Shown here: one piece after another, positions 35,948-50,349 of the stretch
Numbering within the stretch: position 1 is the stretch's first letter
How the letters are laid out: each line of letters opens with the position of its first letter
Assembly (NCBI GenBank): GCA_902518955.1
Contig: CABYIR010000008.1
Coordinates: 1-50,597 of the forward strand
DNA: 50,597 nt
Direction: 5' to 3'
From: an uncultured Pelagibacteraceae bacterium
Lineage (GTDB): Bacteria > Pseudomonadota > Alphaproteobacteria > Pelagibacterales > AG-422-B15
Translations under genes and position numbers: made by a program
Notes under the pieces: model-generated
Database searches by the model: none
What the model was told of the DNA's origin: nothing
The model's input: only the letters and a program-made list of their open reading frames with translations

Positions 35948-35982
35948 GAAATTACAGTTTTTATTTAATGGAGCGTTCAAAA

Positions 35983-36480
35983 ATGAAAAACAAAATTGAG
36001 AAGAAAAATGGTTTCTCGCTGATTGAGCTTTTAGTTGTTGTTGCAATTATTGGTATTCTAGCGGCTGCAGGTGTTGTAGCATATAACGGCTTTATGGATA
36101 ATGCAAAAAAGAGTTCCTCAAAAGCCAATCATACAAATGTGGTAAAATTTCTAAGTTCAAATTTTACTAACTGCTCAACTGGAGCAACTTATATCGCATG
36201 GTCAACTGGTGGTAACCCATACAATGCTCCTTGTACTTGGTCAGTGACTCAACACGCTTCAAGAATGGCTACTCATTTTGCTGCTGAAAATTTTAAGAAT
36301 CCACACTATTCATCTCAAAATGCTGTTTACTATAGAAATGGAACGCCTCCAACATCGGGTTCTTATGTTGGCCAAACGTGGATCTATTGTCAGAACTCCA
36401 ATCCTCAAAGATGTTTTGTGAATACAAGATGGGGTCCTGGAAGTAGTGACTTCTCAAGAAGTACAGTAACTAAAGAGTAG
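35983..36480 (+). CDS. Type IV prepilin (major pilin candidate)
   Basis: A 165-residue prepilin from the ATG at 35983, chosen because GGAG lies 9 nt upstream; an in-frame ATG at 35968 would include that GGAG. The class III signal is KKNG|FSLIE, with cleavage after Gly10 and the conserved Glu as residue 5 of the mature protein. A hydrophobic N-terminal helix follows. Four cysteines (C64, C84, C136, C144) could form two disulfides in the globular head. The KANHTNVVKFL segment is like marine alphaproteobacterial pilins as I recall them. It has its own promoter-like sequence and a second pilin gene 21 bp after it. Confidence 0.88.
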   Translation: MKNKIEKKNGFSLIELLVVVAIIGILAAAGVVAYNGFMDNAKKSSSKANHTNVVKFLSSNFTNCSTGATYIAWSTGGNPYNAPCTWSVTQHASRMATHFAAENFKNPHYSSQNAVYYRNGTPPTSGSYVGQTWIYCQNSNPQRCFVNTRWGPGSSDFSRSTVTKE

Positions 36481-36501: not shown

Positions 36502-36879
36502 TTGAGAGGTTTCTCTTTATTAGAATTATTAGTTGTCGTTGCTATTATTGGTATTCTGGCAGCTGTTGGAATAGTTTCATATAATGGGTACATTACCGGC
36601 GTAAAAAATAAACAAGCGCAAACAGGTCTTCAATCAATCTACCTCGAGCAAGAAGAGTATAAATCAATCAATAAACAATACTATCGACCAAGCGGTGGTT
36701 GTGGCGACCAAACTACTACTATTAATAATGGTTTGTTTGGTGGCCAGATAACTCTTGATAATGAAAACTTCAGATATTGTATATCCGGTAATACATCGAG
36801 TTATATTGCCTACGCTTATGATAAAATGAATAGCAGTAATCGTTTTTGGATAAGAAATACTAACCAAAAAAGTTGGTAA
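36502..36879 (+). CDS. Type IV prepilin, PilE-like, with a three-residue leader
   Basis: A 125-residue prepilin whose only possible start is TTG at 36502, since an in-frame TAA at 36487-36489 lies just upstream. The leader is only MRG, followed by FSLLELLVVVAIIG with Glu at mature position 5. Two cysteines (C67, C93) may form the C-terminal disulfide loop. The RYCISG segment resembles PilE-type minor pilins. No Shine-Dalgarno is visible. It lies 21 bp after the first pilin and 22 bp before pilD. Confidence 0.8.
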   Translation: MRGFSLLELLVVVAIIGILAAVGIVSYNGYITGVKNKQAQTGLQSIYLEQEEYKSINKQYYRPSGGCGDQTTTINNGLFGGQITLDNENFRYCISGNTSSYIAYAYDKMNSSNRFWIRNTNQKSW

Positions 36880-36901
36880 GCCTTTTAACCTCTTGTCTTT
36901 T

Positions 36902-37672
36902 ATGACTCCCATTGAAATAGCTTTTGTAATCGCTTTTTCGTTGTGTTTTGGAAGTTTTGCAAATGTTTGCATATATCGTCTTCCAGTTGATAAATCAATG
37001 TTTACTCCATCAGAGTGTATGCATTGCAACAAACCAATTCCATTTTATTTAAATATACCCTTGATTGGGTTTTTCATTTTAAGAGGTAAATCTGCATGTT
37101 GTCAAAAATCTCTATCATTTCAATATCCAATCGTTGAGGCATTAACTGGAGTTGGAGCATTATATTTAAGTCTGATATACGGTGTTAATATTGAGTCAGT
37201 GCTTGTATTCTTTTTTTACTTATCGCTGGTGATTATTTTTTTTACAGATCTCAATGAGTACATTATTCCAAATGTTATTACTTATTCTCTTAGCATAGCT
37301 GGAATATTAATCTCTTATTTTTCCTACTCGGTTTTTAACTTATCTTTGTTAGAGAGTTTATTGGGTGGAATAATCAGTGGAGGAATCTTATATTTAACAT
37401 CAAAGATATTTATCCTAATACGTAAAAAAGAAGGCATGGGAATGGGAGATGTAAAAATGATCTCTATGATTGGCTTTTGGATGGGTATTGAAAATACATT
37501 TTTAGTACTGATAGCGTCATCTCTGTTGGGCTCAATCGTTGGAATTGGACTTATTTTAATGAAGAAGATGGAACGATCGCAGTATATTCCATTTGGAACT
37601 TTTTTATCTATTGGGGCAGTATTAGTTTGGTTAATAAAAATTTATTATTTACCAAGCATATTCGTACTTTAA
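36902..37672 (+). CDS. pilD: Prepilin peptidase/N-methyltransferase
   Basis: Inner-membrane aspartic protease that cleaves prepilin leaders and N-methylates the new N-terminus. The ATG at 36902 is preferred to an in-frame TTG at 36893, giving 256 residues. The catalytic aspartates are D116 in FTDLNEYIIPN and D183 in GMGDVKM. The cytoplasmic zinc-binding loop has C39/C42 (CMHC), but the second pair is altered: C66-C67 in SACCQ replaces the usual CxxC. About eight hydrophobic segments are present. It follows two of its substrates and converges on pilY1 with a 4 bp overlap. Confidence 0.93.
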   Translation: MTPIEIAFVIAFSLCFGSFANVCIYRLPVDKSMFTPSECMHCNKPIPFYLNIPLIGFFILRGKSACCQKSLSFQYPIVEALTGVGALYLSLIYGVNIESVLVFFFYLSLVIIFFTDLNEYIIPNVITYSLSIAGILISYFSYSVFNLSLLESLLGGIISGGILYLTSKIFILIRKKEGMGMGDVKMISMIGFWMGIENTFLVLIASSLLGSIVGIGLILMKKMERSQYIPFGTFLSIGAVLVWLIKIYYLPSIFVL

Positions 37673-40600
37673 AAAATTTGTCTCCAAGACTTGATTGTAA
37701 ATGAATTGCTAGAGCCCCCACTTCCTGAGATGGTATTTCCAATAATAAGATTATCTTTAGACGTCCATCCTGAACCCATACCTCCACCAGGGGCTCCACT
37801 AATACCAATATATATCTTTCCTTTATAAATTATTGGTGTAGTTGCCATACCAGACCCTAGTTTAAATTTCTTGAGAGTATTACCACAAGTATATGCATGT
37901 GCACTTAAAGTTGCTGATCCTGGATTACACGGATTCAATTTATTAGGTATATATCTTGGGAAATATACAACTCGATCCATGATCGCTGAAGATCCTGTAA
38001 TTTTTTCGTTAGGCAATAAATCAACATACCATCCTTTATGACTTGCATCAGGACATGAAGCTCCAGCGGACGTTACATTTTTACATTTTGCTGCCGTAAT
38101 AGATGATACTCCACTTTTAAACGATGGATAATTTGTATCCTTAATTGCTAATATTCTATTCTTAATTTTTGGATCCTCATCTGCAATATTGTAGCGATCA
38201 CCAGTTCCAAAGAATGCCCAAAGATCACTATTATCATCTAATGATAAAGTCACATCATGGAAAACTCTTCGTCCATTTGTTTCAGTTGCTTCCCCGTCAA
38301 ATAATTGCTGAAGCTGATACATTGTACCCTTGTTTGTTAAATTAAGTTTCCATAACTTGGATTCAAAGTCTGCAAAGTATACCAATGCACCTTTATAATT
38401 TGCAGTTGATGTTGTATCGGGTGTAACTGGAACTACTGACGCTATAACTGAATTGACGACTTTATTTCCTGCTTTGTCGGCAACATCTATTTTCTTCAAT
38501 ACTTTGCCACCATCTGCAATATCAATTAAATACACTGCAGATCCATATGCAGTTGCAGCACCACCGTTTCCACCTGCTCCAAATATTGCAACCCATTTTT
38601 CTACTCCTCCACTTTGAATTCGAATAATTCTAGGAGTTGAAACCGCCTGTCCTAATTTAGTATAATCTCGAGATGGTGAGATTGATGCATAGGCTTCTTC
38701 AGTTTTAGTTCCTGCAGCATTCCAGTATGTTACGGTCTGAGTTGATGGATCATTTTTAAAAGTCCACATATGTTTGGGAGCATCAATATTTGTTATATCG
38801 AGTGCTGAGTAGGAATGCTCGCCTTCACCCATTCCAAAAACAACGACTGTTTTCCAGGCACCATTATGATAAATATCTTTCACAACAGGAGATCCATCAA
38901 CACCGTATATCGAGTTAGTTTTATTTGCTTTTCCTGAACTAACGCCTCTAAGTTTTGGTATAAGAGACGGTGGTATGAATGCCCATTTTTCAGATCCATC
39001 TGCGTTACTAAACGCATGTAGCATTCCCCCGTTTGATCCAGCTAAGATAGTTGTAGCTCGGGCTTTCCAACGATCCTTAAAGGCTTTATAGCCATTTTGA
39101 CTTCTATAAAAATCATCTGAATTTTTATCAGATGTATCCATGCCAGATGAAGGATTGTTTACGAGCGCAGGAGTTGAGTTATAAATATCTGCAAGTTTCC
39201 ATCTTTCATCAGTTGTGGAACCGTCTAAATCTTCATCATATGAATCAATACCTCGAGTGAAGTTTATTAAATTAGTGGCATCAGCAACCGTGCCCATTGT
39301 ACCACCTAAATATAATTCAGATCTTAAAACGCTTTGATTTGCCGCAACAAAATTATTTAATCCAGCAGGAACATTTGGGCTTACTGTCCAAATATTTCTT
39401 GTATCTGCTGCTCTTGCTTCTAATTTTTCTCCTGAGTCCCATTGTTTAGCTCCAACTGTCCCATCAGCTTTTAATTTATATCGAAGAAGTCTTCCTTGCC
39501 ATTGATGATCTTTTTTATAATTAAACACTGCTTGATAAATTGAGTCTCCTGATGTCATATCGGGCATAATAACAGGCGCTGTAAATGTAAGACGAGATTG
39601 AAGAACTTGTTTAATTGCATATGTCAACTGCTGTAATAATTGATCCTCATCATCAGCGAATAATGGCGTCTTAGTTCCACCAGCTGTTGCAAGATTTTGA
39701 TAATTCCTTGTGTTTCCATATCCAGCGTAACCAAGTGCAAATGTTTTTACGCCCTTATTGGTTCGTAACCAAGTGGCAGTCCTAATATTGGATGTTCCCC
39801 ACCATTGGCCATCACTAAAGACAATATTATAGTTCTGCTGACAGTTTGCTTTAGGGCTTATAGGTGATTGTGATCCTGTCCAGTAAGATTTTGCATTATC
39901 CATACCTCGATCTAAATAAGTTCCCCCACCGGTAGGAAAGCGATCTAAGTCAGTATAAATTTGAGCTGCTCCATTTTTACTAATTGGAATTCTAATTCGA
40001 GCACTTGATCCCCATTCTTGTAGACCAAAGTTTGCACCCGTTGTTAGAGATGTATCAGAGACAAGCTTCTTCAAAACACGTCGCGCAATTGCAATTCGTT
40101 TCTCAGACTTTCCATACAAGCCATCGAATGATGCATTTCCTGTAAGATTTGCCCCTCCAGCACAAAGTGACATTTGAAATTTGACAATTCGACTATTATC
40201 AGTGTCCCCAACAAAAACTTTGTCACCCAGCACTCCAAAACCCTTAGCATTTCTTAATTGGCCTAGGTCAGATCGACTTCCATATCCATCACCTATTGTA
40301 CAAAGATGAGCAAATGTAGTTGCGTTATAAACATAAATTTTATGATTAATGCTACTTAAAATATAAAGGCGATTTGCACCGTCAACTTCAATATCATATG
40401 GTGACCCAAGTGAACTTTTATGAGTTAAATTTGCTTCAGTTTTTTCAACTTGCATGAAGTAGTTTGATGCATTGTTAAATCGTGTCAGAACTTTTGTAAA
40501 ATTATCGAAATAATAACTTTTATTATTTTGGTCAATTGCATGAGGGCCTACTCTATTATAATAATTTGGGTCTGGCGTAATGGTTGATTTTAACGAACAC

Positions 40601-41142
40601 CCAGTATCATAGATATATGCAACGCCAAATTGATTAACTACTATTGAGTCACTAGGTGTTATTTCAAGATCAGCATTAATGTGAGTTGAGTTATTTGGAA
40701 ACGTCGAACTTGTACATCTCCAGTTGCCAGATGAATCATAGGACATGATTCTTTTATTGCCTGTATCTATAAAATAAACATTATCACCACTGTCTACAGC
40801 TACTTTACCAGGATAACGAAATTGTTGTTGACCAGAACCGCCATCGCCACGAATTTCTTTCAATAATTTTCCACCAGCATTATATTTTTTGAGATAACTT
40901 CTGTTATATTCTGTTGCCCAATGCGCATTATTCGAGTCCATAACAACGTCATGAGGGTTATTAACTTGTGCTGTACTTGGAGCCGTCCAGCCCATACTAC
41001 CAGACCGGTCTAACATAATAAGTATGTTGGCCTTTACATCTGACTTTCCTGTTCCTGGAGGCGCACTTTTAGCAAAAACATTATTAGAAGAAATACTTAG
41101 AGATAAAGACAGAACAGCTATAAATGTTAAAAATCTACTCAT
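37669..41142 (-). CDS. pilY1: PilY1-like type IV pilus tip protein with VWA and NHL-like regions
   Basis: A 1157-residue secreted protein with signal peptide 1-24. The VWA domain begins with the MIDAS DxSxS at D45-S47-S49, but its remaining elements come much later: T408 in GGGTYL and D444 in VFSDG. The intervening residues, about 55-330, hold NHL-like repeats such as FRYPGKVAVDSGDNVYFIDT. The C-terminal PilY1 propeller domain covers about 515-1157, with a calcium-loop-like DEDLDG at 636-641 followed by LADIYNSTPALV. PilY1 proteins sit at the pilus tip and act in adhesion, assembly and retraction control. It ends the operon with pilT, fimT, pilV, pilW and pilX. Confidence 0.88.
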   Translation of the reverse strand: MSRFLTFIAVLSLSLSISSNNVFAKSAPPGTGKSDVKANILIMLDRSGSMGWTAPSTAQVNNPHDVVMDSNNAHWATEYNRSYLKKYNAGGKLLKEIRGDGGSGQQQFRYPGKVAVDSGDNVYFIDTGNKRIMSYDSSGNWRCTSSTFPNNSTHINADLEITPSDSIVVNQFGVAYIYDTGCSLKSTITPDPNYYNRVGPHAIDQNNKSYYFDNFTKVLTRFNNASNYFMQVEKTEANLTHKSSLGSPYDIEVDGANRLYILSSINHKIYVYNATTFAHLCTIGDGYGSRSDLGQLRNAKGFGVLGDKVFVGDTDNSRIVKFQMSLCAGGANLTGNASFDGLYGKSEKRIAIARRVLKKLVSDTSLTTGANFGLQEWGSSARIRIPISKNGAAQIYTDLDRFPTGGGTYLDRGMDNAKSYWTGSQSPISPKANCQQNYNIVFSDGQWWGTSNIRTATWLRTNKGVKTFALGYAGYGNTRNYQNLATAGGTKTPLFADDEDQLLQQLTYAIKQVLQSRLTFTAPVIMPDMTSGDSIYQAVFNYKKDHQWQGRLLRYKLKADGTVGAKQWDSGEKLEARAADTRNIWTVSPNVPAGLNNFVAANQSVLRSELYLGGTMGTVADATNLINFTRGIDSYDEDLDGSTTDERWKLADIYNSTPALVNNPSSGMDTSDKNSDDFYRSQNGYKAFKDRWKARATTILAGSNGGMLHAFSNADGSEKWAFIPPSLIPKLRGVSSGKANKTNSIYGVDGSPVVKDIYHNGAWKTVVVFGMGEGEHSYSALDITNIDAPKHMWTFKNDPSTQTVTYWNAAGTKTEEAYASISPSRDYTKLGQAVSTPRIIRIQSGGVEKWVAIFGAGGNGGAATAYGSAVYLIDIADGGKVLKKIDVADKAGNKVVNSVIASVVPVTPDTTSTANYKGALVYFADFESKLWKLNLTNKGTMYQLQQLFDGEATETNGRRVFHDVTLSLDDNSDLWAFFGTGDRYNIADEDPKIKNRILAIKDTNYPSFKSGVSSITAAKCKNVTSAGASCPDASHKGWYVDLLPNEKITGSSAIMDRVVYFPRYIPNKLNPCNPGSATLSAHAYTCGNTLKKFKLGSGMATTPIIYKGKIYIGISGAPGGGMGSGWTSKDNLIIGNTISGSGGSSNSFTIKSWRQIF

Positions 41143-41638
41143 TGTCCATATCCATGTATTTTAATGATAACTCATTGAAGCGATCAGAAACTATTTCAAC
41201 AACCTGCTCTCTTGAATCACCAGAAATTTTATCGATAAGAAAAACTGATTTTTCACTTTTATCCCAGTAATAGTAAGCAAGACCACTTGTTCCAGCTCGA
41301 CCATAACCCTCTGATGGTTCGCCGTAATAATATTTAAGACTTTTCAAATAATCAGCATCATTTTTATAATCTCGGATAATGATTTGATGTAAATCTTTAT
41401 CAATAAAATTGTACTTCACAATTGCCTGCTCGAAGTCATCGCAAATACGTTCAATAGGAATATCATAACCATGTAGCTTGCTGCTATTCGTTCCAGCATC
41501 TCCTACAAATTTATTTTGAAATGAATTTAAAGATGAACCAATTAATACTTTTTCAAAATCACACAAAGCGTGTGCTGCTGTATTTGCTATAAAAAACAAT
41601 ACAACTGAAGAAACATAAATTTTAAAGTACTTAACCAT
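41135..41638 (-). CDS. Secreted protein of unknown function in the minor-pilin operon
   Basis: A 167-residue protein with a signal peptide (about 1-24, before LCDFEK). The mature part has two cysteines (in ALCDFEK and ERICDDFE) that may form a disulfide, a KYYYGEPSEGYG segment and a mixed alpha/beta pattern. I do not recognise a family. It abuts pilX (1 bp overlap) and overlaps pilY1 by 8 bp, so it is translationally coupled on both sides. A role with the tip complex is inferred from position only. It occupies the place where some other systems carry PilE-type minor pilins. Confidence 0.75.
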   Translation of the reverse strand: MVKYFKIYVSSVVLFFIANTAAHALCDFEKVLIGSSLNSFQNKFVGDAGTNSSKLHGYDIPIERICDDFEQAIVKYNFIDKDLHQIIIRDYKNDADYLKSLKYYYGEPSEGYGRAGTSGLAYYYWDKSEKSVFLIDKISGDSREQVVEIVSDRFNELSLKYMDMDNE

Positions 41639-42228
41639 TACTTATTAATTCCTACTATAGCCTCAATTAATGTTCTCGTATAGGCATTCGAAGAGCCTGG
41701 CCCTTTTCCACATGCAAAGACCTTGTAGAGATAGCTTGTCATATTGCCTCCTCCGCCCACATATCCAGTTCCACCGCCAATTCCACCGCCAATTCCAGTG
41801 CCTTTATAATTTGTTGTAGTGTGTTCTGTCGTAAACCATAAAAACGATTGATTATCATAAATCAGCTTTTCATTCCTATTTGTAACTCCTAATTCACTTG
41901 TCATCTTTATGCCTCTGCCACTAGTTCCATCATCTCCTGCAATCTTATATGTATCATCAAGTTGAAACTTACACAGAGTACCAACTGAAGAGCTTCCATT
42001 CTTTGGCAAATTACCAGTTGCCGCTTCAATTGATAGCCAGCGTCGAGCTGCCTCAACTCCTGTTTCAGCAGATAAGAACGTTTGTCGACTGCTCTCACTC
42101 TTTCCAGTAACTTTACTTTGAGATGATGCATTCATTAACAATACTGATCCCATTAGTGTCATCGCTAACAACATCACCATAGATAAAATAAGCGCAAACC
42201 CTTTTTGATTTAATTTACTATTGACCAT
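41638..42228 (-). CDS. pilX: PilX-like minor pilin
   Basis: A 196-residue pilin-like protein. The N-terminus QKG|FALILSMVMLLAMTL is a PilX-type class III signal without the usual Glu at mature position 5, as in PilX/GspK tip pilins. The AETGVEAARRWL segment is typical of the PilX N-terminal family. A Gly-rich loop (GGGIGGGTGYVGGGG) lies in the middle of the globular part. PilX proteins prime pilus assembly with PilV, PilW, FimT and PilY1. It overlaps pilW by 11 bp. Confidence 0.85.
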   Translation of the reverse strand: MVNSKLNQKGFALILSMVMLLAMTLMGSVLLMNASSQSKVTGKSESSRQTFLSAETGVEAARRWLSIEAATGNLPKNGSSSVGTLCKFQLDDTYKIAGDDGTSGRGIKMTSELGVTNRNEKLIYDNQSFLWFTTEHTTTNYKGTGIGGGIGGGTGYVGGGGNMTSYLYKVFACGKGPGSSNAYTRTLIEAIVGINK

Positions 42229-43540
42229 AGTAACTGTTCCTTATGAGTGCAGATATCGAATAGCTATCTCTTATGTAATTATCGTTAGTTGTAATAGGTC
42301 GATTTCCAATATTAAATGTTTGAGATACTGGTGAGGTTCCATGCTCTTCAGGGCTTCTAATTAAAAGTCCTACCTCAACCTCCTGCGGGTTTTGAGGCTC
42401 TCCAAAAACTTCTCCAAAAAATTGTATTTCAGCAATTTCATGCCACCTATGTGTTGTTGCGCCCGAGCAAGTTGTTCCACTTCCGTAATTACACTTTGCA
42501 GTACCACTAGGCCTTATTCCAATTGTCTTTATAACCGACTTTTGAAAATCAGAGTCAACACTTATCTCATGATAGGCTCCATACACGTCATAGTCTTGTG
42601 AGTTTTTATTACCTACTGGTGAACATGAAGAGGACCAAGTGCATTTTGTAGCATTTATGTGAAAACCATATTTACCAAAAATTGCATGTTCTTTCCCCCA
42701 CGGATGAGTAATTCCAGAAAAATTACCAGTTGAAACATTACCTGGTGACTCACTTCCAGATTCAGTATTTGCGCCATTCCAAATAAATATTTTCTCAAGC
42801 CTTACCTCTTTGTTAAACCTAACAGTTAATAGATCAACTCCTGCTATGCCTCCACATTCAGTTCCAACATCAATGTTACAAGACCACATTGTATTAAAAG
42901 AATTATCAAATGCGTAAGCCGCATCCCCACTTTTTGCAAAGCCTGGAAAAATATCAGTCTGTCGAGCAGTTATATTAAAATCTGCTGACGTTATTGTTCT
43001 AACATTTCCTTGACCATAAATTGTACTTCCAGTTCCTAATGCATTACCATTTTTTGTTCCAGTAAACTGAAGATCTTCAACGTAATCTGCTATTGGTGAT
43101 TCTGCTATCACTGTTTGTAAAGAACCAGCGGCACAATTCATTGCATTACATTTTTCAACCTTTTTATAAACCCTCAATCTATTATTATATGTTTTCGTAT
43201 AGTATGAAATTTTTAAACGTTCAGTGTAAGATTTATCATAAATTATCTCTATTGAGTCAGGGGCTGTGGTACCGCCATCAGTAATCTTTATTGCATTTGT
43301 AATTTCTGGTTTTTGTTTTGCTGGACCATCATCATAATTGTATCCTGCCATTCGAACATCACGCATGATCATTGTTGCTACAGCTCTTGATGTTTGGGAA
43401 ATATTTTTCATATCCTTTTGAAAGTCATAATTGTTTTTAATTACTATGTATGAAGCAAAAGATGCGGCAATAATGATCGAACTTATGGCAAGACCAATAA
43501 GTATTTCTGGTAATGTGAATCCCTCTTGATTACGGTGCAT
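42218..43540 (-). CDS. pilW: PilW-like minor pilin with a discoidin-like insertion
   Basis: A 440-residue prepilin. The signal is NQEG|FTLPEILIGLAI with cleavage after Gly7 and Glu12 as mature residue 5. The PilW N-terminal region covers about 8-160, including SRAVATMIMRDVRMAGYNYDD. Residues about 186-377 look like an F5/8 type C (discoidin) domain: an AYAFDNSFNTMWS start, a LLTVRFNKEVRLEKIFIWN core and an EIAEIQFFGE end. The C-terminus (385-440) returns to PilW-like sequence. Typical PilW proteins are about 270-350 residues. It overlaps pilV and pilX by 11 bp each. Confidence 0.85.
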   Translation of the reverse strand: MHRNQEGFTLPEILIGLAISSIIIAASFASYIVIKNNYDFQKDMKNISQTSRAVATMIMRDVRMAGYNYDDGPAKQKPEITNAIKITDGGTTAPDSIEIIYDKSYTERLKISYYTKTYNNRLRVYKKVEKCNAMNCAAGSLQTVIAESPIADYVEDLQFTGTKNGNALGTGSTIYGQGNVRTITSADFNITARQTDIFPGFAKSGDAAYAFDNSFNTMWSCNIDVGTECGGIAGVDLLTVRFNKEVRLEKIFIWNGANTESGSESPGNVSTGNFSGITHPWGKEHAIFGKYGFHINATKCTWSSSCSPVGNKNSQDYDVYGAYHEISVDSDFQKSVIKTIGIRPSGTAKCNYGSGTTCSGATTHRWHEIAEIQFFGEVFGEPQNPQEVEVGLLIRSPEEHGTSPVSQTFNIGNRPITTNDNYIRDSYSISALIRNSYYGQ

Positions 43541-43970
43541 TGATCACTCTTTTGAAATGATTACTTGCTTTACCATCACGAGATGCCATACGAATGGTAA
43601 CAACATAATAATCTTTTCCACTTTTCGTTTTTTTTACGACTTCAATTTTTCTCTTATCACTTGGAAGTACACTGCCTAACTTTTTATTAGCTTTAGCAAA
43701 CCATTTAGCTCTTTTCTTATCATGAGAGCCACTACCAGATGATCCTGATTTAAAGTCCATATTATGATACTTATCTATGTTGACTGTATCAGTAAGCAAG
43801 TCTTCATAGATCATATTGGCTAACATATTTTGTTTTTCACGATCAATGGAACTCATCAAAACCCGTGTTGATGTTGATGCTAAACCGTAGACAGCCACAA
43901 AGCCTATGCCAACTATAACTGCGGCAACTAATGCCTCAATAAGTGCTATACCCTGTTGATTTTTCTTCAT
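43530..43970 (-). CDS. pilV: PilV-like minor pilin
   Basis: A 146-residue prepilin from the ATG at 43970, which overlaps the fimT stop as TAATG and gives a standard leader MKKNQQG|IALIEALVAAVI with Glu12 as mature residue 5. An upstream in-frame start at 43988 would lie within fimT. The rest is a short globular head rich in Lys and Ser. It is coupled to fimT upstream and overlaps pilW by 11 bp. Confidence 0.87.
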   Translation of the reverse strand: MKKNQQGIALIEALVAAVIVGIGFVAVYGLASTSTRVLMSSIDREKQNMLANMIYEDLLTDTVNIDKYHNMDFKSGSSGSGSHDKKRAKWFAKANKKLGSVLPSDKRKIEVVKKTKSGKDYYVVTIRMASRDGKASNHFKRVINAP

Positions 43971-44539
43971 TAATTCCACTCTATCCATGTTCGTTGTTGA
44001 GGCGAATATCGAGTTACATCATAAAAACTTGTTGGTCCAATATCGACTCTAAATTTTGTATCAGCATCACGCGTGACTTCAAATCCACCGCCTTTTGATG
44101 TTCCATCAGGATTAAAACAAATTCTGCTACTAGTGTTACCATAGGAAGATGACCTTGAATTACCTGATGCATCATGTTTCGTTCGAACGGTTGCTTCAAA
44201 CTCTAATGCTACAGGATACTCTGGATCAGTCATTCTAGGTCGACCAGTTGATCCACTGCCAATGTTACAAAAAGAAGAATTAAGGCTATCAATATTCATA
44301 ACCATTATTCGATTACCTGATTGCTCTAAGATAATTGGAAAGCCAATGTTCTGACTTCTTGTTTTTGCATAATCAATAAGGCCTCGAATTTTTGCTACAT
44401 CATTTTCTGCAGTTCGTGATGATGTCCACCCAGCTAAATTTGGAACTGCAAAAAGTGCAACTAAGCCAAGGATTGCGACAGTCACAATAACTTCTAAAAG
44501 TGAGAAACCGTTTTTACGTTTAGTGTCCAATTCCATCAT
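43970..44539 (-). CDS. fimT: FimT/GspH-like minor pseudopilin
   Basis: A 189-residue prepilin with the signal RKNG|FSLLEVIVTVAILG, conserved Glu at mature position 5, and a GspH-like head. The segment AKIRGLIDYAKTRSQNIGFPIIL is typical of FimT/GspH, and a CFNPDG motif lies near the C-terminus. FimT proteins are minor pilins, some of which bind DNA for natural transformation. The start overlaps pilT by 20 bp. Confidence 0.87.
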   Translation of the reverse strand: MMELDTKRKNGFSLLEVIVTVAILGLVALFAVPNLAGWTSSRTAENDVAKIRGLIDYAKTRSQNIGFPIILEQSGNRIMVMNIDSLNSSFCNIGSGSTGRPRMTDPEYPVALEFEATVRTKHDASGNSRSSSYGNTSSRICFNPDGTSKGGGFEVTRDADTKFRVDIGPTSFYDVTRYSPQQRTWIEWN

Positions 44540-45530
44540 GATTAATCACCCCTGAGGTTAAGAGCTCTTCAATCGATTTTTCCATTTGAACCATTCCATC
44601 GGACACACCTGTTTGCATTGTACTTGGAAGTTGGAAAATTTTATTTTCACGGATTAAATTTTGAACAGCATTGTTACTTACAAGAATTTCAAATGCAGCC
44701 ACTCGTCCTGTTCCATCAGCCCTTTTCATCAAACGTTGTGTAATGACCATCTTTAAAGATGTCGCAATCTGTGCTCGAATTTGATCTTGTTGTCCTGGAG
44801 GAAACGCATCTATAATTCTATGAATGGTATTTGGTGCACCACTCGTGTGTAAAGTGCCAAAAACTAAGTGACCAGTTTCAGCTGCCGTCAATGCAAGAGA
44901 AATTGTTTCTTGATCACGAAGCTCTCCCACCAAAATAACATCTGGATCTTCTCTTAAACTTTCACGAAGTGCGTCAGTAAATGATGGGGTATTTGAGCCC
45001 AGTTCTCTTTGAGTGATTATTGAATTTTTTGGCTCATGAACAAACTCAATTGGATCCTCTACAGTAATGATATTGCAATCTTTGTTTGTGTTGATGTAGT
45101 CAATCATCGCAGCAAGGCTTGTTGACTTTCCAGATCCTGTTGGACCAGTGACCAATATTAAACCATTAAGTGGGGTTACTAATTTGCTTTCAATGACAGG
45201 TGGAAAGCCCATTTCATGAAAGACAGGTATCTTAGTTTCAATTTTTCTCATGACAATATTCATACCATTGTATGCAGAGTAAACATTAATTCTGAATCTT
45301 GTTGAGCCAATGATCATTGCAAGATCAAGACCCTTTTGGACTTTTAACTTTTCTTGATTTTCTTTGCTTAGCTTATCTTTAAGAAAGTCATCAATATCTT
45401 TAGCTGAAATAATCTGAGTTGAATCCCTTTGAATCGACCCATTTACACGCAAAGCAAGCGGTAACCCTGATTGAATGTGAATATCCGATAAACCGCTAAT
45501 TTCAGCACTTTTTGTAATGATATCATCCAT
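44520..45530 (-). CDS. pilT: Pilus retraction ATPase PilT
   Basis: Hexameric ATPase that powers pilus disassembly and twitching. The 336-residue protein has an N-terminal PAS-like domain with DIHIQSG, Walker A GPTGSGKST at 129-137, the Asp box around 156-160 (VEDPIE), Walker B ILVGELRD with Glu203, and the His box HLVFGTLHT at 221-229. A C-terminal AVQNLIRENK segment fits PilT. It heads the minus-strand operon, which places retraction and the minor pilins/PilY1 under one promoter. PilU is an alternative, but no second retraction ATPase is in the window. Confidence 0.9.
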   Translation of the reverse strand: MDDIITKSAEISGLSDIHIQSGLPLALRVNGSIQRDSTQIISAKDIDDFLKDKLSKENQEKLKVQKGLDLAMIIGSTRFRINVYSAYNGMNIVMRKIETKIPVFHEMGFPPVIESKLVTPLNGLILVTGPTGSGKSTSLAAMIDYINTNKDCNIITVEDPIEFVHEPKNSIITQRELGSNTPSFTDALRESLREDPDVILVGELRDQETISLALTAAETGHLVFGTLHTSGAPNTIHRIIDAFPPGQQDQIRAQIATSLKMVITQRLMKRADGTGRVAAFEILVSNNAVQNLIRENKIFQLPSTMQTGVSDGMVQMEKSIEELLTSGVINHDGIGH

Positions 45531-45702: not shown

Positions 45703-47481
45703 ATGTTCAAAAGTATTACAAATATCTTTAGCTCACTTGGATCGATCTTCAGTAAAAAAGGAAGCTCTTCTTCTGCATCTCCTACTGGTGTTGGCGGCAC
45801 GAATGAAAAGAAGTCTTTTTTTGGTAAATTAGTCGCAAAAGTTAGTACAGGCATCATTGACTCACTTAGTAAATATTCTGTTCAGCAAGAAGAAGTTGTC
45901 GGAGTAGATATTGGCCCTAGTGGTATTCGATTGCTTCAATTATCACAAACTGAAAAAGAAGAATGGATTGTTGAAAAATTAACTGCTCGACATGTTGATC
46001 GAGTAGAAGATATTAAAGTTAGTCAAGGACCATTTGTAGAAGCAATCAAAATAGGTTTAGAGTCTGGTAAGTTTACGACTACTAATGCCGCTGTATCTCT
46101 TCCTGTATCAAGCTCAATTGTAAAAGTTATTGCGATGCCTCTTATGAGTGACCTTGAGATGAAAAATGCTATTGAATTTAATTCTCTTTGGGAAAACTTA
46201 ACTCAATTGCCTGGTACAATTGATGAGTATTCGATTTTTCATCAGGTAATTAGAAAAGATTCCTCATCAAATATGATGGATGTTCTTTTTGTTGCTTCAA
46301 AATTAAGTGATGTTAATGCGTATATAGATATTGTAACACAAGCAGGATTACAACCTGTAGTTCTTGATGTAAAATGCTTTGCACTTCGAAATGCATTTGA
46401 AACTATGGCATTGCCAAACATTGCTCAAAAGCCAATGGCCATTTTAGAAATTGGATCTCATGAAAATTATTTACTAGTGCTAAAAGGAGATGATCCATTT
46501 GTCAGTGATTTATTTTTAAGTAATGCAGATAAAGCTATACTTGGAGTAAAGCAAAGTGATACTCTTGCATTAGCTCCAATTATTGATCGATACATCTTAC
46601 AAATTAGACAGAACTTAACGGCATACCAAAATCGATTTAAGTCTGACAAGGTTGACTCAATTTTTATTGTTACGGACACTCCAAATAGTGAAATGATTAA
46701 TAAAGTTTTATCAGAAAAATTAACTGATCTTACAGTTGTAAACTTCAATCCTTTTTCAAAGATGCAAATTCCAGCTAACGTTCAAAGTAAGATTGACGCT
46801 GAGGAAAATAACTCATCATTTGCTGCTGTGACTGGTCTTGCTACTCGAAAACTTGATATTTTTGGATACTATCAAAAAGTTACTGGTGTTAAAAATATCA
46901 ACCTTCTTCCAAACCGTGAAGGGGTTAAAAGCTCAATTAAAAACAAGTTTATTTCTGGGATTTTTGCGATCGGAATTTCGATAGCTGTGATTGTCTTCGG
47001 AATATATGCTTTTTCTTCATACTATTTTCAGTCTTCTTCCAATCAAGAAGCGTTATCAGACTACGATATGCTTAAAATGGAAATTGAGCAACTTCAAGGC
47101 CAGTATTCAGCCCTAATAAGTGAAAAAGATAAAATTAACGAACAATTAAAGTTATCTGAGACAGCGACAACAAATCAAAATATAGCTGCAAAAGTATTGC
47201 GTGAGATCGCTTATCAGGCAGGATTTAATATTGTGCTAACAAATCTTGATTTTAATGGACAAGAGAAATATGAAGTCAAGGGAGAAGCTTTGTCTGATGC
47301 AGACGTTATAAAGTATATTACCCGTGTTAAAGAAACAGAATTATTTGAAAATGTTGTACTTGAAAAATCATCACTTGCTCAAGAAGGATCAACAATTAAA
47401 AAGTTTGTTGTGAAATTAATAATTAAACCAGAGTTAATAAACTCTCAACTTGTAGAAGTAAATGAGGAGGTTGAAGAATAG
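45703..47481 (+). CDS. pilM: Fused PilM-PilN type IV pilus alignment protein
   Basis: A 592-residue single frame that joins two normally separate proteins. Residues about 63-385 are actin-like PilM, with VGVDIGPSGIRLLQL at 66-80 and a late GLATRKL segment. Residues about 396-592 are PilN, with the NINLLPN motif at 398-404, one membrane helix (about 418-438), a coiled coil (455-485) and the periplasmic ferredoxin-like fold. In Pseudomonas the cytoplasmic INLLP peptide of PilN binds PilM, so here the ligand and receptor are in cis. The first 60 residues are a Ser/Lys-rich extension. It abuts the pilO start with no gap. Confidence 0.88.
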   Translation: MFKSITNIFSSLGSIFSKKGSSSSASPTGVGGTNEKKSFFGKLVAKVSTGIIDSLSKYSVQQEEVVGVDIGPSGIRLLQLSQTEKEEWIVEKLTARHVDRVEDIKVSQGPFVEAIKIGLESGKFTTTNAAVSLPVSSSIVKVIAMPLMSDLEMKNAIEFNSLWENLTQLPGTIDEYSIFHQVIRKDSSSNMMDVLFVASKLSDVNAYIDIVTQAGLQPVVLDVKCFALRNAFETMALPNIAQKPMAILEIGSHENYLLVLKGDDPFVSDLFLSNADKAILGVKQSDTLALAPIIDRYILQIRQNLTAYQNRFKSDKVDSIFIVTDTPNSEMINKVLSEKLTDLTVVNFNPFSKMQIPANVQSKIDAEENNSSFAAVTGLATRKLDIFGYYQKVTGVKNINLLPNREGVKSSIKNKFISGIFAIGISIAVIVFGIYAFSSYYFQSSSNQEALSDYDMLKMEIEQLQGQYSALISEKDKINEQLKLSETATTNQNIAAKVLREIAYQAGFNIVLTNLDFNGQEKYEVKGEALSDADVIKYITRVKETELFENVVLEKSSLAQEGSTIKKFVVKLIIKPELINSQLVEVNEEVEE

Positions 47482-48342
47482 ATGGCAAAGATATTTGGCA
47501 TAGATACTGCGAACCTATTTAAAAAGAAATCTGATGCTCCTGCCGCGCATGGGGATGAAAAAAAAGGCGCAATTGGTAAATCGCTATTTAATGATGCAAA
47601 ACTTGTTCGACGTGCAGGTATCACGGGTGGGCTGATCATTTTCGTATTTGGTGGATATTTCATATTCATAAATCCATCACTTAATAAACAAGAAGATAAA
47701 ATCGTTGAGATTGATAAATGGAATCAACAATTGATTAGTTGTAATGATGAAATTGAAAACCTGAAACAAGAGGTAGCAGAATTAAATGATCAAAAAAAAT
47801 CAAAAAGTGGTTTGTTTGTAACTGATGATGAGTTTGAAGCTTTCTATGCAGACTTAACAGAAGCATCAGTTTTATATCGATTAACAATTAAGGATATAAC
47901 AAGAGCAGAAGAAGTTCCAGTTAGACAAAAATCAGGAGCTGGAGATGATATGATGATGGATCCTATGATGGATCCTATGATGGATCCAAATATGGATCCT
48001 AATATGATGATGGATGATGGTGATATGTTTGCTGTTAGATGTGATGATGGTATGGATATGTTTGCAATGGACATGGGTATGGACATTGGAATGGATATGG
48101 GAATGGATATGGGAGAGATGAATTTTGAAGATCCAAATGCTGAAGGTGGGCCTATAGCATATTATAAATTAATGGTTAATTTTGAAATAACTGGCTCTTT
48201 TACTAACTACCTTAAGTTTAGAAATGTAATAGCTAATAAAAACAAAATCGTTAATATTGAGTCTGAGAAAATAGATACAGATGAAACACCAGGTCAAATT
48301 GTTGCTGCTGCAACAGTATCATTAGTTAAGGCTGCTGATTAA
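47482..48342 (+). CDS. pilO: PilO-like alignment protein with Met/Asp-rich insertion
   Basis: A 286-residue bitopic inner-membrane protein. The cytoplasmic N-terminus covers 1-45, one membrane helix about 46-64, a coiled coil about 70-108 and a periplasmic ferredoxin-like domain. Between the two halves of that domain, residues 155-216 form a low-complexity tract with 22 Met and many Asp, in MMDP and DMGM-type units. PilO proteins pair with PilN and bind PilP. It immediately follows pilM/N and is 1 bp before pilP. The assignment rests on position and topology as well as sequence. Confidence 0.83.
   Translation: MAKIFGIDTANLFKKKSDAPAAHGDEKKGAIGKSLFNDAKLVRRAGITGGLIIFVFGGYFIFINPSLNKQEDKIVEIDKWNQQLISCNDEIENLKQEVAELNDQKKSKSGLFVTDDEFEAFYADLTEASVLYRLTIKDITRAEEVPVRQKSGAGDDMMMDPMMDPMMDPNMDPNMMMDDGDMFAVRCDDGMDMFAMDMGMDIGMDMGMDMGEMNFEDPNAEGGPIAYYKLMVNFEITGSFTNYLKFRNVIANKNKIVNIESEKIDTDETPGQIVAAATVSLVKAAD
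47944..48129 (+). repeat. Tandem low-complexity repeat inside pilO
   Basis: Short units such as ATGATGGATCCT (near 47953-47990) and ATGGATATGGGA (near 48070-48115) recur in frame, encoding the Met/Asp-rich tract of PilO. The regular units point to expansion by slippage or unequal recombination. Confidence 0.8.
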
Positions 48343-48343
48343 T

Positions 48344-48760
48344 ATGAAAAAAAGTTTAATATTTCTAACATTTATATTAGGTCTTCTTTCTACAAGTTTT
48401 TCTTTTGCTGATGTTGATCCATTCTCAAGAAGTTTCACAAAGCAATCCAGTGGTGATCAAACATCAATGTCTGCATCGCCTGCAGCTGGAGATAATAGTG
48501 TACATCCTATGCTTCGTCTAAGCCTTGATCAATATTTCGTTAAAGGAGTTGTTACATCATCAAAAGGATCACTTGCTATTGTTAGTTTCCCAGGAGGTGA
48601 TGATTATTTTTTATATGTAGGAGATCCGATAGGAAATGATGAACATAGTTTAAAATCAATTTCTATTGATGGAGTAATTTTTGAAAAAGAAGGTGCGGAT
48701 GAAGTTGAAAAGCAGGTATTTAATCCTGTGCAAACTATAACTGGATCGGATATGCAATAG
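48344..48760 (+). CDS. pilP: PilP-like periplasmic protein
   Basis: A 138-residue secreted protein with signal peptide 1-22 (after SFSFA). The mature region begins DVDPF, and residues about 50-115 form the short beta-sandwich typical of PilP (SLDQYFVKGVV, SLAIVSFPGGDDYFLYVGDPIG). PilP links the PilNO inner-membrane complex to the secretin PilQ. Most PilP proteins are lipoproteins, but no lipobox Cys is present here. Position between pilO and pilQ supports the call. Confidence 0.82.
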   Translation: MKKSLIFLTFILGLLSTSFSFADVDPFSRSFTKQSSGDQTSMSASPAAGDNSVHPMLRLSLDQYFVKGVVTSSKGSLAIVSFPGGDDYFLYVGDPIGNDEHSLKSISIDGVIFEKEGADEVEKQVFNPVQTITGSDMQ

Positions 48761-48762
48761 AT

Positions 48763-50349
48763 ATGAATACTTTACAAATATTTATGAGAAAGTTTGGAAT
48801 TATTATTGCAATTCTAACTCCTTTATTACTTTTATCTTGTGCTGAATACATGATGTTGGATAGTGAAGTTAAAGAAGATTTCAAGCCAACTGAATTTGCA
48901 AAAGAAAACCAACCTGTTATTGAAGAAAGTGTAAAACTGGGCCCAAGACCAAATACAAAAACAGACACAGCTTTACGACCTGATAGAAGAATCTTTATCG
49001 ATGAAAGTATAATGACTGATTATACAAAAATTATTGATAAAAATTTCACTCAAACATTTCCTATTTCAGTAAATTTTGAAAATGTTGAAATTAGAGAAGT
49101 GATGCAAACATTCTCAATTATTACAGGCAAGAACATACTTGTTGGAGATGAAGTTAAAGGAAATGTTAAAGCAAGAATTGTAAATGAAGATTGGGATGAC
49201 GTACTAGAAGCTATTCTAGAAATTAAAAATATCGCTTTAACATTAAACCCAAAAACAAATATTGTTCGTATACATTCAAAAGATGTTTTAACTGCTCAAG
49301 AAGCATATAATTTAAAACGTAAGGCTGAAATTAGAAAAGCAATGGATTTAAACAAGTCTATTGCACCTGTGAGATCTGAAATATTTAAACTTTTCTATAG
49401 TAATCCAACAGTAGTTAAAGCTCAGATTGAAGATATTCTAAAAAATATGGATTCTACTGCTTCAGCAGGTGAGGGAGATGAAGGAGAATCCTCCGGTGGT
49501 ACAGCTGATCGAGTTAAAATGACAGTTGATGCAAGACTAGGATCTCTAATAGTTCTTGGTGGAGCCGAAGACCTTAATTTCATAGAAAAACTTATTAACC
49601 AAATTGATGTCCCTACCCAACAAATTTTGATTGAAGCATTTGTTGTTGAGGTAGGCTCAGACTTTGACAAAGCTTTTGGTACTCGAATTGGTCAATCAAT
49701 GAATAATATAACTGGAGATAGTTCAAAATCACTTTCTTTAGGAACCCCTTTTTATGATGAGGAAACAAAACTATGGACTGTTCCATTGCAAGATGGAGGC
49801 TTATCTAATAATCCAATAAGTGCAATGACAGGTTCTCTTGGTATGTTGCTAAGATCTAACAATATTGATTTATTAGTAGAACTCCAAGCTCTTGAAACTC
49901 TTGGCTTAAGTAAAATTGTATCAAATCCTAAAATTTTCACGCTTGATAATGAAACTGCAACAATTACTCAAGGGATGGAAATTCCTTTCACTACAACTGA
50001 AGATGGAGAAACTAAAACAGAATTTAAAGATGCAGATCTTAAACTTGAAGTAACGCCTAGTATTGTTGGAGATGGAAATATAATCTTAAATATAGATATT
50101 AATAAAGATAATGCTGATACATCACAAGCTAATCCACCTATTTCAAGCACTAAAGTCACTACTAGATTATTGGTTGAAGATCAAACAATCGTAATGATTG
50201 GTGGTATTTATGAACAAACATCTACGAAGGGCTCATCAAAGACTCCAATACTTAGTGATATACCTGTCTTCGGTAACTTATTTAAAAGTGTCACAAAAGA
50301 CGATAAGCTTGATAGGTTACTAATATTTATCGCACCGAGGATTTTATAA
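48763..50349 (+). CDS. pilQ: Type IV pilus secretin PilQ (lipoprotein)
   Basis: Outer-membrane secretin through which the pilus emerges. The 528-residue protein has a lipobox LLSC with Cys26. An STN-like N0 domain covers about 95-170 (VNFENVEIREVMQTF, GKNILVGDEVKG), followed by an N1 domain (about 205-225), an acidic loop, and the secretin beta-domain from about 285 (QILIEAFVVEVGSDF) to SDIPVFGNLFKS near the end. It lacks the AMIN domains of longer PilQ proteins, so it resembles the lipoprotein secretin MshL in size. pilB begins immediately after its stop codon. Confidence 0.92.
   Translation: MNTLQIFMRKFGIIIAILTPLLLLSCAEYMMLDSEVKEDFKPTEFAKENQPVIEESVKLGPRPNTKTDTALRPDRRIFIDESIMTDYTKIIDKNFTQTFPISVNFENVEIREVMQTFSIITGKNILVGDEVKGNVKARIVNEDWDDVLEAILEIKNIALTLNPKTNIVRIHSKDVLTAQEAYNLKRKAEIRKAMDLNKSIAPVRSEIFKLFYSNPTVVKAQIEDILKNMDSTASAGEGDEGESSGGTADRVKMTVDARLGSLIVLGGAEDLNFIEKLINQIDVPTQQILIEAFVVEVGSDFDKAFGTRIGQSMNNITGDSSKSLSLGTPFYDEETKLWTVPLQDGGLSNNPISAMTGSLGMLLRSNNIDLLVELQALETLGLSKIVSNPKIFTLDNETATITQGMEIPFTTTEDGETKTEFKDADLKLEVTPSIVGDGNIILNIDINKDNADTSQANPPISSTKVTTRLLVEDQTIVMIGGIYEQTSTKGSSKTPILSDIPVFGNLFKSVTKDDKLDRLLIFIAPRIL

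Follow-up and report, generated by a model that had tools for sequence, protein, structure and literature searches.

A PilW-type minor pilin of a SAR11-type bacterium with a conserved inserted domain of plausibly discoidin-like character

Introduction

Modular pilins, as defined by Raynaud et al. (2021), combine a prepilin signal with a recognised extra domain that is not specific to type IV pili. In the available text of PMC8179133, pilins with vWA modules serve as adhesins, and lectin-type modules are found in others. In Streptococcus sanguinis PilB (vWA) and PilC (lectin), described in the same text, a class III prepilin bears a C-terminal non-pilin module that is proposed to face outward at the tip for adhesion. 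Insertions within the pilin sheet are also described. According to the accessible part of PMC6561018, Thermus thermophilus ComZ has an extra beta-rich domain, a beta-solenoid that binds DNA, between the penultimate and the last strands of the sheet, and this protein is argued to be a DNA receptor located at the tip. The tip pseudopilin GspK of type II secretion likewise has a domain inserted in its pilin sheet, but this one is alpha-helical (accessible parts of PMC6561018 and PMC8179133).

Regarding the position of PilW, the part of PMC7541494 that is accessible describes the minor pilins and PilY1 of Myxococcus xanthus as a priming complex proposed to remain at the pilus tip, PilW3 being tentatively placed just below PilX3. 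A subunit order FimU-PilW-PilV-PilX-PilY1, obtained by modelling, is quoted in the available text of PMC13190605. Large additions to PilW can block the pilus machine, as the M. xanthus PilW3-sfGFP fusion does not support motility (PMC7541494, same part).

Here we report on a PilW-type minor pilin from a SAR11-type bacterium. It resembles the core PilW of the FimU-PilV-PilW-PilX-PilY1 complex, as presented in the accessible part of PMC7541494, by operon order, N-terminal prepilin signature and a PilW resemblance of its C-terminus, and differs from it by about 220 extra residues in one loop. In contrast to the S. sanguinis proteins as given in the available text of PMC8179133, the module is placed inside the pilin module, is not recognised by Pfam and is found in a SAR11-type host. 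Unlike in ComZ (PMC6561018, accessible part), the insert is followed by further pilin sequence, and its similarity is to discoidin domains. With regard to the definition of modular pilins, the prepilin signal is present, and so is the extra domain, which passes no database cut-off. Our literature search returned no relevant combination of a discoidin or F5/8C domain with a pilin, although such an architecture may already stand in the supplementary list of PMC8179133, a source available in part.

Results

The window, i.e. the whole stretch of DNA that was analysed, is the complete contig G000:C8 (50597 bases) of a 1.17-Mb genome, 79% complete, which belongs to the Pelagibacterales (SAR11-type). 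Over 38.9 kb it is 95.9% identical to contig C10 of a sister-species genome (G001). The ORF list and Pfam searches give an operon of overlapping minus-strand genes in the order pilT-fimU-pilV-pilW-pilX-orf-pilY1; fimU, pilV, pilX and pilY1 are encoded together with pilW in the overlapping run 37669-44539. A prepilin peptidase gene and pilM/N-O-P-Q-type genes flank this operon.

44520..45530, minus strand: PilT-type retraction ATPase, 336 aa (PF00437)
43970..44539, minus strand: FimU/GspH-like minor pilin, 189 aa (PF07963; PF12019 GspH 20.9 bits, cut-off 21)
43530..43988, minus strand: PilV-like minor pilin, 152 aa (PF07963; operon position)
42218..43540, minus strand: PilW-type minor pilin with inserted domain, 440 aa (ORF; PF07963 over cut-off, PF16074 below cut-off; codon comparison with G001)
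41638..42228, minus strand: PilX-like minor pilin, 196 aa (PF14341 PilX_N over cut-off)
41135..41638, minus strand: small protein between pilX and pilY1, 167 aa (no Pfam family)
37669..41142, minus strand: PilY1 tip adhesin with NHL repeats and VWA domain, 1157 aa (PF05567, PF01436 and PF00092 over cut-off)
36893..37672, plus strand: prepilin peptidase PilD (PF06750, PF01478)
45703..50349, plus strand: genes for a PilM/N fusion, PilO-like, PilP-like and PilQ secretin proteins (PF11104, PF05137, PF00263; the PilO- and PilP-like ones named from order and size only)

Both the NHL repeats and the VWA domain of PilY1 are located in its N-terminal half. An ORF similar in size and N-terminus to that of the 167-aa protein occupies the same position in two other loci (L025 and L070), and compared with G001 this gene (30 synonymous, 11 nonsynonymous codons) is conserved less than the adjoining pilX. 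Elsewhere in the window, a small pilin encoded at 36502-36879 shows a sub-threshold match with ComP_DUS (E 1.5e-4, 23 bits, cut-off 27.3), ComP being the DNA uptake sequence receptor. The pilin gene at 35968-36480 is the most divergent of ten pilus genes in the comparison with G001 (86.7% DNA identity; 52 synonymous and 10 nonsynonymous codons).

The open reading frame that the initial annotation had placed at 42218-43540 is intact, with exactly these coordinates, and encodes a protein of 440 aa (P0001). It is read from the minus strand, a point on which that annotation was silent; the plus-strand frame at the same place is full of stops. P0001 starts with a class III prepilin signal and a hydrophobic helix (PF07963, 27.3 bits, cut-off 21.2, residues 3-27). 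Its C-terminal part, residues 351-435, reaches 17.2 bits with PF16074 (PilW), below the cut-off of 26, a score that may be lowered because the insertion splits the PilW domain. We therefore name P0001 PilW-type from its operon position and from alignment, not as a PF16074 member. A split PilW-type sequence had been suggested, and indeed the PF07963 N-terminus and the PF16074-like C-terminus are some 220 residues apart.

To compare insert-bearing and insert-free proteins, P0001 was aligned with the PilW of another genus (P0003, from genome G021), with a second, orphan PilW of its own genome (P0002) and with five SAR11 PilW-like proteins of another family that do not have the insertion (eight rows). 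In these five proteins, the strand that corresponds to DYVEDLQF (about residues 152-159 in P0001 numbering) passes through a short loop into the one that corresponds to EVEVGLLIRS (about 387-396), and between the same two strands P0001, P0002 and P0003 each hold 220-287 extra residues. The insertion proposed earlier is thus real, with a span of about 161-380 that is somewhat wider than the 186-377 first given. The two strings on which the initial annotation was based are found in the translation, AFDNSFNTMWS at residues 210-220 and EIAEIQFFGE at residues 368-377. The protein can be divided as follows.

43061..43540, minus strand: first part of the pilin module, residues 1-160, with class III signal, N-terminal helix and first strands (PF07963 at 3-27; 88.6% identity to the orphan paralogue over 158 aa)
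42401..43060, minus strand: inserted domain, discoidin-like (F5/8C-like) by hhalign to F5/8C, residues 161-380 (absent from insert-free SAR11 PilWs; no Pfam match)
42881..42913, minus strand: N-terminal F5/8C-like signature AFDNSFNTMWS, residues 210-220 (translation; F, D, T and W do not vary among the three inserts)
42410..42439, minus strand: C-terminal F5/8C-like signature EIAEIQFFGE, residues 368-377 (translation; weak alignment to the F5/8C C-terminus)
42221..42400, minus strand: last part of the pilin module, residues 381-440 (the match to the Pfam PilW model ends at residue 435)

The insertion is not only real but conserved. Between the window and G001, pilW differs by 36 synonymous codons and a single nonsynonymous one, V390I, which lies outside the insert. 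Within the insert (146 synonymous and 514 nonsynonymous sites) the differences are 17 synonymous and 0 nonsynonymous; under neutrality such a pattern has a probability of about 7e-12, rising to 4e-10 if a sixfold transition bias is assumed. This contrast indicates a maintained protein domain under strong purifying selection, not junk. For PilY1 the corresponding counts are 190 synonymous and 23 nonsynonymous codons.

The initial annotation had recognised an F5/8C (discoidin) pattern in the insert. Traces of it are limited to profile-profile comparison and a sub-threshold NF047619 match, and every direct search of P0001 with PF00754 was negative, an outcome that the initial annotation had itself named, in this strict form, as counting against its reading: this model of 127 positions (Pfam cut-off 28.2 bits) gave no match in the search of the window's own genome (E up to 1), nor in hmmscan of the whole protein and of the insert alone (E up to 10). 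The NCBIfam model NF047619 'NADase_discoid' matches P0001 over residues 206-260 with E 0.072 and 13.2 bits, below its cut-off of 38. No Pfam, NCBIfam or PHROG domain was found on the insert over cut-off or at a useful E-value. Searches of the PDB with the sequence and with a profile built from the alignment of the three inserts (P0001, P0002, P0003) returned weak chance matches only, none better than E 0.56 for the profile.

The three-insert profile was compared by hhalign with an F5/8C alignment of 25 domains, one per locus, taken from the 45 matches listed in the sampled genomes. The score was 30.7 and the probability 47%, insert columns 38-76 falling on F5/8C columns 9-41. This register corresponds to the N-terminal DG-x-x-T-x-W region of F5/8C, and the confident part covers only about 33-47 columns. 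None of 500 column-shuffled controls reached 30.7 (mean 10.9, maximum 20.7). Taken singly, the inserts of P0001, P0002 and P0003 scored 25.2, 20.3 and 26.3, respectively. We also ranked 289 ORFs against F5/8C, each 150 aa or longer and located in the window or in a fetched locus, leaving out the loci from which the F5/8C domains came. Ranks 1-4 (26.4, 25.5, 25.5 and 20.4) went to insert-bearing PilWs, namely P0003's ORF, P0001, a one-residue variant of P0001 in G001, and P0002, all aligned at the same F5/8C positions; the fifth ORF scored 19.6. The result held when the F5/8C domains were extended at both ends (22 domains, score 30.2), and with this extended set the P0001 insert alone gave a second weak alignment, of its AEIQFFG end with the F5/8C C-terminus (probability 1.4%). 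As positive control, NADase_discoid, a known F5/8C relative, scored 41.1 (92%) against the same F5/8C alignment, and as negative control a Laminin-G alignment gave a probability of 0.66% against the inserts. By these profile scores, the inserts fall between a true F5/8C relative and noise.

The discoidin-like N-terminal signature recurs in the divergent inserts of P0002 and P0003, neither of which had been seen when the pattern was first proposed. In many F5/8C lectins, structural calcium ligands are provided by a DGxxxT loop and by the acid of an AE[IV] end. All three inserts retain D212 and T217 as well as an acidic residue at the end. The likeness to F5/8C (PF00754) and to the NADase-type discoid family (NF047619) consists of an N-terminal [F/A]-D-x(3-4)-T-x-W signature and an AEIxxxG-type end. 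The inserts differ from both families in that neither cut-off is passed, and in being longer (220-287 aa, exceeding the 127-position F5/8C model) and cysteine-rich, with a THPWG motif kept in P0001, P0002 and P0003. A discoidin-like nature of the insert is plausible from these comparisons but below formal thresholds, and for the latter reason the insert is not filed as a PF00754 member.

Several further leads were set aside. The window insert alone aligned with seven NADase_discoid members at the right place but with a probability of 1.05%, and the three-insert profile with 0.2%, so no subfamily is claimed. A weak PF00754 match of P0003 (E 0.0073) was dropped as spurious, since residues 110-143, which it covers, belong to the pilin part and not to the insert. 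A hand-made regular expression of two motifs retrieved 4 of 420 ORFs, three of them insert-bearing PilWs, but it recognised only 1 of the 22 real F5/8C domains and did not retrieve P0002, so that it cannot serve as a test. Two single-sequence AlphaFold models had mean pLDDT values of 37.0 and 28.6, too low for any fold.

The orphan pilW of the window's genome is located on contig C1 (L024:6278-7756, minus strand), directly after livG, and is intact (492 aa); no other pilus genes were seen in the 14 kb read around it. Compared with P0001, its first 158 residues are 88.6% identical, its last part 64% and its insert, at residues 159-433, 29%. A three-way alignment gives P0001 and P0002 82.5% identity in the pilin part but 27.9% in the insert, and P0002 and P0003 46.6% in the pilin part and 38.3% in the insert. 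Over 2000 column bootstraps, the P0002 insert was nearer to that of P0003 than to that of P0001 in 99.4%, while its pilin part was nearer to P0001 in 100%. Since the P0002 insert is closer to that of another genus, the inserts seem to have been swapped, or to have diversified, independently of the pilin part. This is the simplest reading of the alignments; alternatively, the P0001 insert may have diverged very fast.

The gene lies in a stretch at the 3' end of livG (L024:6119-7953, i.e. G000:C1:60118-61952) with direct repeats at both ends. The outer repeat is of 37 nt (86%, with 27 of 28 positions identical in the core), its copies are 1798 bp apart, and the first one spans the last codons and the stop of livG. 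The inner repeat is of 31 nt with an identical core of 15 nt. Allowing at most one mismatch, this 15-nt core occurs in the window's genome at these two places only and was not found in G001, G002, G021 or G005. Similarity to G005 stops exactly at the livG stop codon. No convincing integron-type attC site was noticed by eye around the gene. From its sequence, the orphan pilW looks like a small single-gene mobile element inserted at a gene 3' end, although it may also result from a chimeric assembly.

Within the window's family, 3 of 53 genomes have the insert-bearing PilW, and the PilY1 marker is present in the same three, so that the pilus seems sporadic in this family. In the order sample, a PilW-type match was obtained for 127 of 397 genomes, the long matches to the model being limited to the three insert-bearing ones; for the other 124, the PilW sequence was read fully in 13 and the rest were judged by match coverage and frame length. 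In one set of fifteen loci, nine lay on the opposite strand and yielded no PilW that could be read. PilWs that are free of the insert also occur in operons with other minor pilins. Further insert-bearing relatives came to one locus among genome contigs and, in the class sample, to 1 of 385 genomes, which is the window's own; none was found in the viral contigs or plasmids searched.

Other large PilW-type proteins were noticed. In another SAR11 genus (G053), L063:3945-5792 encodes a PilW-type pilin with a long C-terminal extension that appears C-type-lectin-like by eye, for which the PDB search gave a weak C-type lectin match (E 0.55) and Pfam no match. Giant PilW-type proteins of about 1221-1231 aa are encoded at L060:4729-8424 (G046), L061:1396-5070 (G039) and L062:1651-5316 (G049); in the two that were scanned, Pfam found nothing beyond a weak N_methyl match.

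Discussion

On balance, we lean towards P0001 being a modular minor pilin. It would be a PilW-type subunit of a FimU-PilV-PilW-PilX-PilY1 priming and tip complex, in which a domain of about 220 residues, set in a loop that joins two beta-strands of the pilin sheet, would most likely adopt a divergent form of the jelly-roll fold of the discoidin (galactose-binding-like) superfamily and recognise a surface ligand near the tip. The conserved minor-pilin/pilY1 operon and the M. xanthus work (accessible part of PMC7541494) suggest that the pilin part would position this module next to PilY1, at the pilus tip or directly beneath it. There it may bind a glycan, a lipid or a glycoprotein on particles or on other cells, and PilT-driven retraction could then pull on the bound ligand. 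Adhesion or capture is proposed here by analogy with modular pilins and ComZ.

The insert could also have a beta-rich fold other than discoidin, perhaps an unknown one, and have come to resemble F5/8C in its FDxxxxTxW motif and AEIxxxG end by convergence. The short F5/8C alignment, the lack of a useful Pfam or PHROG match and a PDB profile search with nothing better than E 0.56 would fit such a domain, but convergence accounts poorly for a score well beyond those of 500 column shuffles and higher than in 285 of the 289 local ORFs, for four insert rows at the same F5/8C positions, and for two insert ends that align, if weakly, in the right order. We regard it as doubtful, while giving it some weight. 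A role of the insert as DNA receptor in a competence-type pilus, like that argued for the inserted beta-solenoid of Thermus ComZ, appears improbable. ComZ is the closest architectural precedent, with its insertion in the pilin sheet, tip location and DNA binding (PMC6561018, accessible part), and the window also encodes, at 36502-36879, the small pilin that matches ComP_DUS below threshold. However, a PDB search with the three-insert profile retrieves no ComZ chain, and such similarity as exists is to discoidin, not to a solenoid.

Finally, the insert might be a structural part of the tip complex that packs on PilY1 or PilX or acts as a stopper of the machine, with no external ligand. For M. 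xanthus it is proposed that large globular domains, those of PilW3 included, contribute by steric clash to stopping retraction (PMC7541494, accessible part), and the insert is strictly conserved between sister species while PilY1 changes (23 nonsynonymous versus 190 synonymous). Yet inserts of the two PilWs of one genome that are 27.9% identical, against 82.5% for the pilin part, are unlike a fixed interface, and PilWs in operons with other minor pilins can be insert-free. We consider a purely structural role unlikely.

Taking P0001 as a modular tip pilin, one may speculate that some SAR11-type bacteria exchange tip recognition modules, an idea that we put forward only tentatively. The operon PilW would carry one discoidin-like module, and the 1.8-kb free-standing cassette at livG, with its mobile-element-like direct repeats, would supply a spare PilW that is almost the same in its pilin part but has another module. 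If this is true, swapping or co-expressing such PilWs would change the recognition by the pilus tip. The repertoire of modular pilins would also gain a discoidin-like module that is inserted instead of appended. SAR11 cells are commonly viewed as free-living, non-adhesive drifters. If a tip pilin bears a conserved and exchangeable domain of recognition type, some SAR11-type cells are predicted to grasp particular surfaces or molecules, and the insert offers a defined fragment of protein for finding out which.
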